A stretch of DNA of 64,000 nt from Pedobacter agri PB92 (GTDB taxonomy: Bacteria > Bacteroidota > Bacteroidia > Sphingobacteriales > Sphingobacteriaceae): contig NZ_AJLG01000002.1 of assembly GCF_000258495.1 (NCBI RefSeq), positions 1 to 64,000 on the forward strand, in the 5' to 3' direction. This document shows positions 10,242 to 54,227 of the stretch, piece after piece. Numbering within the stretch: position 1 is the first letter of the stretch; every line of letters begins with the position of its first letter. The notes under the pieces are model-generated. The model did not search any database. It was not told where the DNA came from and was given only the letters and a program-made list of their open reading frames with translations. A program made the position numbers and the translations under genes.

Positions 10242-10380
10242 CCCCCTAGCCCCCTAAATGGGGAATTACGGTTAAGCGCCTTCGGCAACGGCGAACCGAG
10301 AAAAAAGGTTGGCGTAAGGCAAAACTAATGCTAATCAGCTTAAAAAAAAAGATTGCTTCATACCTCGCAATGACGGACTA
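10242..10380. repeat. Two dispersed palindromic repeats in the gap between converging genes
   Basis: Right after the epimerase stop there is a C-rich element (CCCCCTAGCCCCCTAAATGGGG) of a kind also seen at 46441 and, in variant form, near 14610 and 14725. At 10350-10375 is one arm of the main repeat family (AGATTGCTTC, then CCTCGCAATGACGG). A small inverted repeat (GCCTTCGGCAACGGC region) lies between. No gene is visible. Confidence 0.7.
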
Positions 10381-46440: not shown

Positions 46441-46595
46441 CCCCCCAACTCCCTAAAGGGGAGCTAAAAGCAAAATGGAAATTACGGGGTTAGAAATCAA
46501 ATTGCCTTGCTCCGAATCGCATGCCACCCTGCTTCAGTTCGCAATGACGCTCTATTATCGTCATTGCGAGGAGGAACGACGACGCAATCTCATTC
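46441..46595. repeat. Dispersed repeats between thyA and folA
   Basis: Starts with a C-rich element (ACCCCCCAACTCCCTAAAGG), then two back-to-back arms of the main repeat: GCTTCAGTTCGCAATGACGC at 46531-46550 and CGTCATTGCGAGGAGGAACG, then ACGACGCAATCTC, at 46559-46591. The region happens to be open in the folA frame, which produces a false N-terminal extension. Confidence 0.75.
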
Positions 46596-52277: not shown

Positions 52278-53138
52278 ATGAGCCAAGATAAATTCAAATT
52301 AGTAGAGTGCCCTCGCGATGCCATGCAGGGGTTACATGATTTTGTCCCTACCGAACTTAAATCAGAATATTTGAATTTATTGCTTCAGGTTGGTTTCGAT
52401 ACGCTGGATTTCGGGAGTTTTGTATCCCCGAAAGCCATTCCACAAATGGCAGATACTGAAAAAGTTTTGGCCAGTTTAGATCTAAGCAAGACTTCGACAA
52501 AGTTACTGGCTATTGTAGCCAATTTAAGAGGTGTAGAACAAGCTGTTTACCATAAAGAGATTAGTTACCTGGGATTTCCCTTTTCGATCTCAGAAACGTT
52601 TCAACAGCGAAATACCAATTCAAGTATTGAGCAATCACTTATTACTGTTGAAAAAATGCTCGACCTTTGTGCCAAAAATAACAAAAAGGCTGTAGTGTAT
52701 TTATCAATGGGTTTTGGTAACCCGTACGGAGATGAATGGAATTATGAAATTGTAGAAAAATGGGCAGCTATATTGGTAAGCAAAGGCGTTGAGATTCTTT
52801 CTTTGGCAGATACTGTTGGCATATCTACGCCAGCGAAAATAAAAGCAATTTTGCCTCCATTGATATCAAAATTTAATCACACGGAAATTGGCGTTCATTT
52901 ACACTCCACTCCTACCGAAAGATTTGAAAAAATTGAAGCCGCATACGATTCTGGTGTAAAGCGAATTGATTCAGCTTTGAAAGGATTTGGGGGTTGCCCA
53001 ATGGCTGCTGATGATTTAACAGGAAACATCGCAACAGAAGAAGTCATCAGTTATTTAAATTCAAAAGATGAAGAACTGAATCTCAATATGGATAACTGGA
53101 ATGAGGCGATGCGTTTATCAGGAAAGATTTTTGGGTAA
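52278..53138 (+). CDS. Hydroxymethylglutaryl-CoA lyase-like enzyme
   Basis: 286 residues, TIM-barrel of the HMGL-like family. It cleaves HMG-CoA to acetoacetate and acetyl-CoA in leucine degradation. Seen: VECPRDAMQGL (Arg and metal-binding Asp), FDTLDFGSFVSPKAIPQMAD, SLADTVGISTP, the metal His pair in IGVHLHSTP, and the active-site Cys loop GGCPMAADDLTGNIATEE. The second residue set PRDAMQG, where most enzymes have PRDGLQ, is a small divergence. The family also includes related aldol-type lyases, so the substrate is likely but not certain. Single gene. Confidence 0.87.
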   Translation: MSQDKFKLVECPRDAMQGLHDFVPTELKSEYLNLLLQVGFDTLDFGSFVSPKAIPQMADTEKVLASLDLSKTSTKLLAIVANLRGVEQAVYHKEISYLGFPFSISETFQQRNTNSSIEQSLITVEKMLDLCAKNNKKAVVYLSMGFGNPYGDEWNYEIVEKWAAILVSKGVEILSLADTVGISTPAKIKAILPPLISKFNHTEIGVHLHSTPTERFEKIEAAYDSGVKRIDSALKGFGGCPMAADDLTGNIATEEVISYLNSKDEELNLNMDNWNEAMRLSGKIFG

Positions 53139-53159: not shown

Positions 53160-53440
53160 CGTCATTGCGAAGCACGAAGCAGTCCTACTACTCTGGGTGC
53201 GAAGGTTTACATAACTATTTACTTTAAAATGTCTTAGTTTATAGCGAATGCATTAAGATTACTTCGTACCTCGCAATGACGAGATTGAGACTAAAAGCAC
53301 TATTTAAATAACAATTGCACTTTCCGATTATCGTCATTGCGAGGCACGAAGCAATCCTACAACAATGGGTGGGTATTTATAATTTTTAACATTCTCAGTG
53401 TAGCGAACGCCTTAAGATTGCTTCGTTCCTCGCAATGACG
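53160..53440. repeat. Two tandem hairpin repeat units (MITE-like)
   Basis: Unit 1 at 53160-53282 begins CGTCATTGCGAAGCACGAAG and ends ACTTCGTACCTCGCAATGAC. Unit 2 at 53332-53440 begins CGTCATTGCGAGGCACGAAG and ends GCTTCGTTCCTCGCAATGAC, then G. In each, left and right arms are inverted repeats of about 25 bases. The interiors are also related (TCCTAC, then TGGGTG, then AGCGAANGC before TTAAGATT), so these are two copies of one 110-123-base element and not chance hairpins. Confidence 0.8.
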
Positions 53441-53446
53441 TGGCGT

Positions 53447-53740
53447 TTAATCCAGATCGCTATATAAATCCTTCCAACTCGGATTTAACTCAATAATCAA
53501 ATCAATTTTTTGCTGACGACTTCCACCTTTTATTCGTTTTTCTTCAACAATAGCATCTTCAATTCTAGGAAAAAACATAAAATAGGCTAACTTAAAACAT
53601 TTATACTTTGAGATAAAACTTTTTTCAAACACCTTATTTTTGTGTTGCGAAACTCTAATCTGCAAATCCGAAGTTACTCCAACATATAAAATGTTATTAA
53701 AGGAATTTGTCATGATATAAACGCACCCTCCTCTTTCCAT
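53447..53740 (-). CDS. GIY-YIG nuclease family protein
   Basis: 97 residues, a single GIY-YIG domain. The motif is CVYIMTN (for GIY) followed by ILYVGVTSDLQIRVSQHK (for YIG, with the catalytic Arg in LQIRVSQH), then FKLAYFMFFPRIEDAIVEEKRIKGG (catalytic Glu in EDAIVEEKRIK). Stand-alone proteins of this COG2827 type are common in Bacteroidota and have no fixed function. Here the gene ends 6 bases from a tandem hairpin repeat pair and is followed on its other side (53770-53796) by another right arm of the same repeat, so it sits inside a repeat cluster. Confidence 0.9.
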   Translation of the reverse strand: MERGGCVYIMTNSFNNILYVGVTSDLQIRVSQHKNKVFEKSFISKYKCFKLAYFMFFPRIEDAIVEEKRIKGGSRQQKIDLIIELNPSWKDLYSDLD

Positions 53741-53754
53741 TAAATCTTATCTCT

Positions 53755-53796
53755 TATAGTTGAAAGCTTTAAGATTTCTTTGTTGCTCGCAATGTT
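53755..53796. repeat. Diverged right arm of the dispersed repeat
   Basis: TTTAAGATTTCTTTGTTGCT then CGCAATG lies just beyond the start codon of the GIY-YIG gene. It matches the right end of the two units on the other side of that gene at most positions (TTAAGATTGCTTCGTTCCTC then GCAATG). Confidence 0.65.
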
Positions 53797-53804
53797 GAAA
53801 AATT

Positions 53805-54227
53805 TTAAACTTTCTTTACCATCTTAAAATGTTGAATTCCTGCTTCTTCGAATTGATCTCCTTCTGAAACAAAACCAAACTTAGCATATAAACTCACTGC
53901 ATCAAGCTGAGCATTCAGGTAAATATAATGAGCATCTTCAGGTAAATCAGAAAGTGCTTCGGCAATTAATGCTCTGCCAACACCCTGCCCTCTAAAGTCT
54001 TTCAATACCGCAAAACGTTCCAGCTTGTAACCTTTATCCGTTTTACGCCAGCGGCAAGCACCACAAGGTTGTCCGTTTTGAGTAGCCAGGAAATGAGTAG
54101 AAACATCTTCGTTTTCCCACTCCAGTTCAGGTGGGCAGTTCTGCTCATCTACAAATACAATTTTACGTATAGCAAATACTTTGTCTAAATCTTCGGGATG
54201 GATAACTTTTTGAACCTGTAAACTCAT
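53805..54227 (-). CDS. GNAT family N-acetyltransferase
   Basis: 140 residues. Cytoplasmic acetyl-CoA-dependent acyltransferase. The CoA-binding motif A is ERFAVLKDFRGQGVGRALIAEAL (RGQGVGRAL), with motif B YIYLNAQLDAVSLYAKFGFV. The N-terminal IRKIVFVDEQNCPPELEWENED resembles ElaA-type GNATs. Acceptor unknown. 5 bases after the low-affinity iron permease-like gene on the same strand. Confidence 0.88.
   Translation of the reverse strand: MSLQVQKVIHPEDLDKVFAIRKIVFVDEQNCPPELEWENEDVSTHFLATQNGQPCGACRWRKTDKGYKLERFAVLKDFRGQGVGRALIAEALSDLPEDAHYIYLNAQLDAVSLYAKFGFVSEGDQFEEAGIQHFKMVKKV

Follow-up and report, generated by a model that had tools for sequence, protein, structure and literature searches.

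What is a small GIY-YIG nuclease gene doing among the hairpin repeats of its genome? The question is raised by a 64,000-nucleotide stretch of the Pedobacter agri PB92 genome (hereafter the window), in which such a gene lies beside inverted-repeat units that carry a CGTC tag. CGTC-tagged REPs were defined by Di Nocera et al. in 2013 and reported from five phyla; according to the closing statement of that survey they apparently lack a dedicated transposase, and in the excerpts at hand no enzyme gene stands beside them, unlike the GTAG REPs with their RAYTs (PMC3733652). The same excerpts describe a superfamily with a shared CGTC/TGTC outer tag, a stem usually starting with AT and a mostly head-to-head dimeric arrangement, and include in it Neisseria dRS3 and Rickettsia RPE-4/6 (PMC3733652). 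From the sequence comparisons presented here, we put forward the small GIY-YIG family as the likely candidate, and a strong one, for the enzyme that CGTC REPs have so far lacked. A literature search, with preprints and most subscription journals outside its scope, found no link between the two.

The nuclease and its flanking repeats

The nuclease matches the GIY-YIG domain PF01541 with 54.2 bits (cut-off 22.6) over residues 5–79. This is its sole Pfam match, and a scan of NCBIfam returned nothing above cut-off. The family presumably corresponds to COG2827. Aligning 35 sequences shows no variation at residues Y8, Y19, G21, R29, H33, E67 and N86, and the catalytic motif residues and fold of GIY-YIG enzymes are present by Pfam, alignment and structural model. 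The AlphaFold2 model (pLDDT 92.1) finds BH0048 (1zg2) as its best PDB fold match with an E-value of 0.002, followed by Slx1 and UvrC-N among the leading matches, none of them below 0.001; I-TevI is at rank 33. The nearest solved structures by sequence are 1zg2 and 1ywl. No match to the nuclease was found in the phage collection searched.

Purifying selection acts on one ortholog group of the nuclease. Values of dN/dS lie between 0.035 and 0.14 in 17 of the 18 pairs with finite dS, the remaining pair (G167–G215) giving 0.24. The sample comprised eight genes and 28 pairs, of which the seven involving G145 were excluded (frame off by one codon) and three had saturated dS. The window's genome also contains a second paralog (L002, G000:C216) with 46% identity and one internal stop, which is surrounded by a different hairpin family of type GTCATTCTGAG/TGTCATGCTGAG.

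Beyond the stop codon of the gene lie two tandem units, each composed of two 28-nt arms in head-to-head orientation (Table 1); the arms of the unit nearer the gene are 93% complementary. The preliminary description had placed the end of these units six bases from the stop codon, and the coordinates (53440 and 53447) confirm this. It had also noted a diverged right arm beyond the start codon; we recover it 18–57 bases past that codon, where 40 nt match the reference copy at 70% identity. Compared with shuffled sequences, the single-stranded fold of the unit nearer the gene gives z = −7.3 and that of the outer unit z = −3.6. In aligned copies, gene-less ones included, similarity starts at CGTC, and two-armed units end at GACG. 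Each window arm folds into a 5-bp stem with a 10-nt loop, whereas the published CGTC REP families 1–4 have an 8–9 bp stem and a 4–5 nt loop (PMC3733652); because the window stems are shorter, we call these repeats CGTC-tagged and do not assign them to families 1–4.

Table 1. Features of the nuclease locus (window coordinates)
Feature	Position	Strand	Basis
Conserved neighbour, anchor for empty sites	52278..53138	+	ORF, conservation
Left arm of outer, slightly decayed unit	53160..53187	+	Inverted pair, unit fold
Right arm of outer unit (partner of 53160..53187)	53254..53281	-	Inverted pair
Left arm of CGTC-tagged inverted-repeat unit adjoining the stop codon of the gene	53332..53359	+	Inverted pair, unit fold
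Right arm of unit adjoining the stop codon (partner of 53332..53359)	53413..53440	-	Inverted pair
97-aa GIY-YIG nuclease gene, candidate repeat-handling enzyme	53447..53740	-	ORF, PF01541, AlphaFold2, invariant residues
Degenerate right arm on the start-codon side of the gene, left over from the second flanking unit	53758..53797	-	70% identity; orthologs L203, L210, L214
Conserved neighbour on the other side, second anchor	53805..54227	-	ORF, conservation

A search of the 5.14-Mb genome for a 13-mer from the arm, with at most one mismatch allowed, gives 195 occurrences, versus one for the reversed control. Four arms lie within 300 bases of the window nuclease, versus about 0.03 expected at genome density. 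Single arms are also present in this genome, and further arms of the repeat, with 0 to 2 mismatches, lie elsewhere in the window at 10363, 14862, 26987, 46537–46571 and 47174. No target-site duplication is visible by eye at gene-less copies of the repeat, and neither the open reading frames nor the Pfam scan revealed a transposase within the window unit.

Association of the nuclease with tagged hairpins

A nuclease match at E ≤ 1e-10 is present in 126 of 251 genomes of the window's family, the Sphingobacteriaceae. Among the best loci of this family (L039–L067; 28 usable of 29, with L050 excluded), 24 of 28 have a hairpin tagged CGTC or TGTC no more than 300 bases from the gene, and 19 have one on both sides. 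A further set of 40 family genes gives 31 with a hairpin and 18 with hairpins on both sides, versus 25 and 0 of 130 control ORFs taken from the same stretches. This set (L160–L199) spans 40 genomes and 11 genera, with L169 and L175 dropped for short flanks and two genes each contributed by L160 and L161. At the strict setting, 87 family entries have a tagged hairpin within 350 bases and 26 do not.

The association extends well beyond this family. A contig scan yielded at least 580 relatives, of which we used the best-scoring 80, a set weighted to Alphaproteobacteria; three loci were dropped for short flanks. Among the 77 usable loci from these best 80 of at least 580, a CGTC/TGTC hairpin lies within 300 bases in 53, versus 38 of 684 control ORFs (Fisher, 5e-38), and hairpins lie on both sides in 32, versus 3 of 684 (Fisher, 8e-32). 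If the short-flank loci are retained, the counts are 55/80 and 34/80. Small-ORF controls score 10/193 on any side and 1/193 on both. Per intergenic base, hairpin density near the nuclease is 4.69 per kb versus 0.22, a 21-fold excess. The preliminary description had proposed testing for an enrichment of repeats near such genes in relatives, and both the family set and the cross-phylum set show it. The hairpins have a preferred geometry: the median distance is 32 bases to the nearest plus-oriented hairpin before the gene (40 loci) and 18.5 bases to the nearest minus-oriented hairpin after it (40 loci), and 28 of 34 two-sided loci have a plus hairpin on the left and a minus hairpin on the right.

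Positive loci carry titles from Alpha-, Beta- and Gammaproteobacteria, Bacteroidota genera, Ignavibacteriales, Nitrospirae, Armatimonadetes, Chloroflexi, Propionibacteriaceae and Omnitrophus, and from the candidate groups Buchananbacteria, Parcubacteria and Kerfeldbacteria. Many of the proteobacterial hairpins appear by eye to fit an 8–9 bp stem with a 4–5 nt loop. In a plasmid collection, tblastn matched 33 records, with genera including Sinorhizobium, Novosphingobium, Azospirillum and Neisseria, all four of which are also named in the available text of the 2013 survey (PMC3733652). Twelve of the 33 records were inspected by eye; CGTC/TGTC hairpins adjoin the gene in ten and a CCTC variant in two. 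A cyanobacterial plasmid is among the positive records. On a Planktothrix plasmid (L074, 9986–10270), the nuclease with its TGTC hairpins is found inside a gene cluster annotated as DISARM defence.

The tag emerges from a scan in which none was specified. Among tetramers preceding 5-bp stems near the gene, GTCA (163 versus 7.9 expected) and TCAT (152 versus 8.8) rank highest, and CGTC (102 versus 12.5) is seventh by ratio. GTAG is not enriched near the gene (5 versus 3.4), and we reject the idea that these repeats are GTAG REPs. Nor would any GIY-YIG gene do: among weaker or other GIY-YIG matches, a tagged hairpin lies within 300 bases in 1 of the 12 loci examined (33 fetched). The nuclease–repeat association is real, broad across many phyla, and specific both to hairpins tagged CGTC or TGTC and to this subfamily of GIY-YIG nucleases.

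The strict hairpin is absent from 24 of the 77 cross-phylum loci, including those of Caulobacter and some of Bradyrhizobium. In the full best 80 it is missing from 25 loci, 12 of which carry a diverged one as judged by eye, and no tagged hairpin was found at Caulobacter loci L101, L104, L110 and L138. A looser hairpin pattern raises the counts to 68/80 on any side and 42/80 on both, over a higher background (153/684 and 11/684 controls). Three Bradyrhizobium loci have a short CACTTCGTG-type hairpin without the CGTC tag after the nuclease stop codon (20 bases past it in L111 and L142, 15 bases in L128), which may be a terminator or another repeat class.

Matching of nuclease lineages and repeat types

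Nuclease lineages go with particular repeat types. Across the 87 family genes with a hairpin, protein similarity and repeat similarity are correlated (Spearman 0.28), a value reached in none of 500 permutations; the coefficient is 0.25 when shared loci are removed. Paralogs within a genome provide a second comparison, in which only hairpin-bearing paralogs enter. In 15 genomes, the closest nuclease from another genome has a repeat matching the tested paralog rather than its sister by 70 to 4, with 2 ties, and by 63 to 8, with 5 ties, once pairs with homologous flanks are removed; both ratios count ordered pairs and not independent events. Genome G150 has four paralogs with four repeat types (four of six matches examined). 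Flank homology is shared by 57 cross-genome nuclease pairs, and since orthologous nucleases can share a locus, vertical inheritance accounts for part of the matching.

Copy number points in the same direction, in comparisons that ignore kinship. For the repeat subtype GTCATTGCGAGGAGGNACGACGAAGCAATC, the median copy number is 22 among the 9 genomes of the genus whose nuclease is at least 82% identical, one of these orthologs (G061) having an internal stop, versus 1 among 43 others. Arms of the window subtype have a median of 16 in genomes with a nuclease match at E ≤ 1e-10 versus 3 in those with none in the first large genus (p = 0.007), and 21 versus 4 in the second (p = 0.002).

Some genomes are rich in repeats and have no close nuclease. 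G016, a complete single-contig genome of the same family, contains 207 exact window-type arms and 152 exact arms of a second subtype, with no nuclease match at E ≤ 1 and with PF01541 genes only in long frames. Arms are likewise found without a close nuclease in G094 (65), G242 (92), G082 (51) and G141 (35). G016 (L315–L344) may have lost the gene recently, or its repeats may have been spread by another agent.

Sites with and without the gene

We compared the orthologous site in relatives using the neighbour at 52278–53138, presumably an HMG-CoA-lyase-like gene, as an anchor; the neighbour on the other side is presumably a GNAT-like acetyltransferase. The anchor is present in 58 of 60 genomes of the genus, and 30 loci were inspected, 19 of them as sequence. 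Unit-only and unit-gene-unit alleles coexist at this site. A unit of the same repeat family stands there without the gene in L202, L211 and L220, and a unit from another CGTC-tagged family in L201, L204, L205, L209 and L217. The gene is flanked by units in L203, L210 and L214, as well as in the window, where one side has decayed, and in L212, whose gene is broken. Single, mixed or decayed remnants occupy the site in L213, L218, L219 and L222, and no arm motif was found between the two neighbours in L221, L223, L226, L227 and L229. At the remaining inspected loci the second neighbour is displaced or was not found. Across L201–L223, this convergent intergenic space carries at least two CGTC-tagged repeat families in different species and resembles a hot spot.

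As judged by eye, the second flanking unit is intact in L203, L210 and L214, and we therefore regard the diverged arm of the window as what is left of that unit. This corrects one part of the preliminary description, which had the gene lying as cargo between a left arm at 53332 and a right arm at 53796. The intact orthologs carry a complete unit on each side of the gene.

Similar differences are found elsewhere. In Azospirillum lipoferum a unit-gene-unit arrangement lies between sufB and sufC, where neither the gene nor a tagged hairpin was found in A. oryzae, A. ramasamyi, strain B510 or A. argentinense; strain B510 has an unrelated hairpin there. Empty sites, which the preliminary description had suggested seeking in relatives, are thus present both in Azospirillum and at the site orthologous to the window. 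Within 50 kb of A. lipoferum sequence, strictly tagged hairpins are confined to the gene, and they are absent from the two homologous 50-kb stretches. This comparison contains no polymorphic gene-less unit, so no target duplication can be read there. For L276 and L241, which differ in their surroundings, BLAST homology covers the gene and its arms only. Tandem full or partial copies are found in L160, L161 and L071. The surroundings of the gene differ among Planktothrix relatives, which offered no clean empty site, and some Shinella relatives are without the gene in a rearranged region.

Proposed role of the nuclease and alternative explanations

The link between nuclease family and repeats that the preliminary description had suggested is upheld by the enrichment, by the matching of lineages and repeats, and by the empty sites. 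We think it probable that the product of the gene is a nuclease cognate to the CGTC-tagged hairpins around it, with a part like that of RAYT/TnpA-REP for the GTAG REPs. More tentatively, and with doubt slightly outweighing belief, the small GIY-YIG nuclease may serve across bacteria as a dedicated mobiliser of CGTC-tagged REPs that acts without a transposase partner. It would then form a system parallel to and independent of the HUH REPtrons, with many co-evolved pairs and several per genome. We infer cutting and mobilisation of the repeats by the nuclease from these sequence patterns. The enzyme would recognise the folded repeat, as a single-stranded hairpin or a cruciform, and cut at or near the CGTC tag, which forms both outer ends of the unit. 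Host repair or replication would then place copies of the unit, whether gene-bearing or not, at further intergenic sites, and gene-less units would represent a non-autonomous, MITE-like form. To our knowledge, GIY-YIG enzymes are hydrolytic cutters and are not known as transposases, which counts against this proposal. So do the repeat-rich genomes that have no close nuclease, the loci where no strictly tagged hairpin adjoins the gene, the share of the matching due to common descent of loci, and the failure to see a target-site duplication.

The nuclease might instead be a homing-type parasite whose cutting of REP units serves solely to bring in its own gene by recombination between arms, the repeats being landing sites spread by something else. 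The position of the gene inside or between units, the unit-only and unit-gene-unit states of orthologous sites, the homing-nuclease fold (with I-TevI in the list of structural matches) and the repeats of G016 without the gene would all fit. We nevertheless consider this explanation unlikely: the copy number of one repeat subtype tracks the matching nuclease, kinship being ignored in that comparison, and the confinement of tagged hairpins to the gene in A. lipoferum, with none in the homologous stretches of two relatives, offers no indication that a unit was already present there as a homing target. Less likely again is a domesticated, structure-selective repair nuclease (Slx1/Cho-like) that trims or regulates hairpins, or has them as its terminators or regulators, and plays no part in their spread. 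In favour of it, the nearest folds include Slx1 and UvrC-N, one ortholog group is under purifying selection, the four Caulobacter loci are without tagged hairpins, and one of three Caulobacter genes with the domain has an SOS box in the portion of that study consulted (PMC1839093). Against such a role, the lineage-specific repeat matching, the presence or absence of whole units and the tandem copies resemble an element and not a regulated housekeeping gene.

That another enzyme acting in trans moves both the repeats and the gene is highly improbable. Repeat-rich G016 without a close nuclease would be explained, and the 2013 survey, in the text available, names movement by other transposases among the possibilities; the same text, however, records only fortuitous transposase neighbours for CGTC repeats (PMC3733652), whereas the nuclease family adjoins them in many phyla. 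Chance or bias, with REPs accumulating in any intergenic space, is barely conceivable. It would account for the one-sided score of control ORFs in repeat-rich family genomes (25/130), but we reject it on the 21-fold excess per intergenic base, the low small-ORF score, the absence of two-sided controls (0/130 versus 18/40) and the near-absence of tagged hairpins at weaker or other GIY-YIG loci. Cognate recognition of the repeats by the nuclease stays our preferred explanation. Because this gene family is coupled to CGTC REPs both in position and in evolution, it gives a direct, testable answer to the question of their missing enzyme, and it suggests what a widespread class of small GIY-YIG proteins may do. 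The natural enzyme–repeat pairs, four of them in one genome, could be used for work on specificity. If the enzyme does mobilise the repeats, bacteria would have a nuclease-driven route of transposition without a classical transposase.

Comparison with known systems

The window nuclease shares its domain and size with small bacterial GIY-YIG proteins of the UPF0213 class (BH0048, Escherichia coli YhbQ). It also shares the domain with Slx1, a branched-DNA nuclease that is among its closest solved folds; YhbQ is grouped with Slx1 in the part of the literature consulted (PMC7017083). For Caulobacter, the available text describes three small COG2827-domain genes, one with an SOS box, and gives their role as unknown (PMC1839093). 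GIY-YIG homing endonucleases of the I-TevI type have the catalytic fold in common with the window nuclease, and possibly self-insertion. Unlike them, the window nuclease has 97 residues, of which PF01541 spans 5–79, and is nested in dispersed repeats.

An insertion sequence is recognised by a known transposase and a target-site duplication, and neither was found for the window unit. Pairs of MITEs and insertion sequences likewise combine short gene-less units with gene-bearing ones that share their ends, but the window unit contains no DDE or HUH transposase and has no visible target duplication. The IS982-derived MITE described in the available part of PMC9769881 is unrelated to the window repeats.

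The closest parallel is the REPtron (TnpA-REP/RAYT), in which a single enzyme gene is likewise flanked by dispersed REP hairpins and matched to them; the excerpted account has enzyme and repeat co-evolving (PMC8266576). REPtrons have an HUH/Y1 tyrosine transposase and a GTAG tag, in contrast to the GIY-YIG nuclease and CGTC/TGTC tag of the window system, near which GTAG stays close to expectation. On account of both differences the window system is not a REPtron, but by analogy we propose that it works like one.
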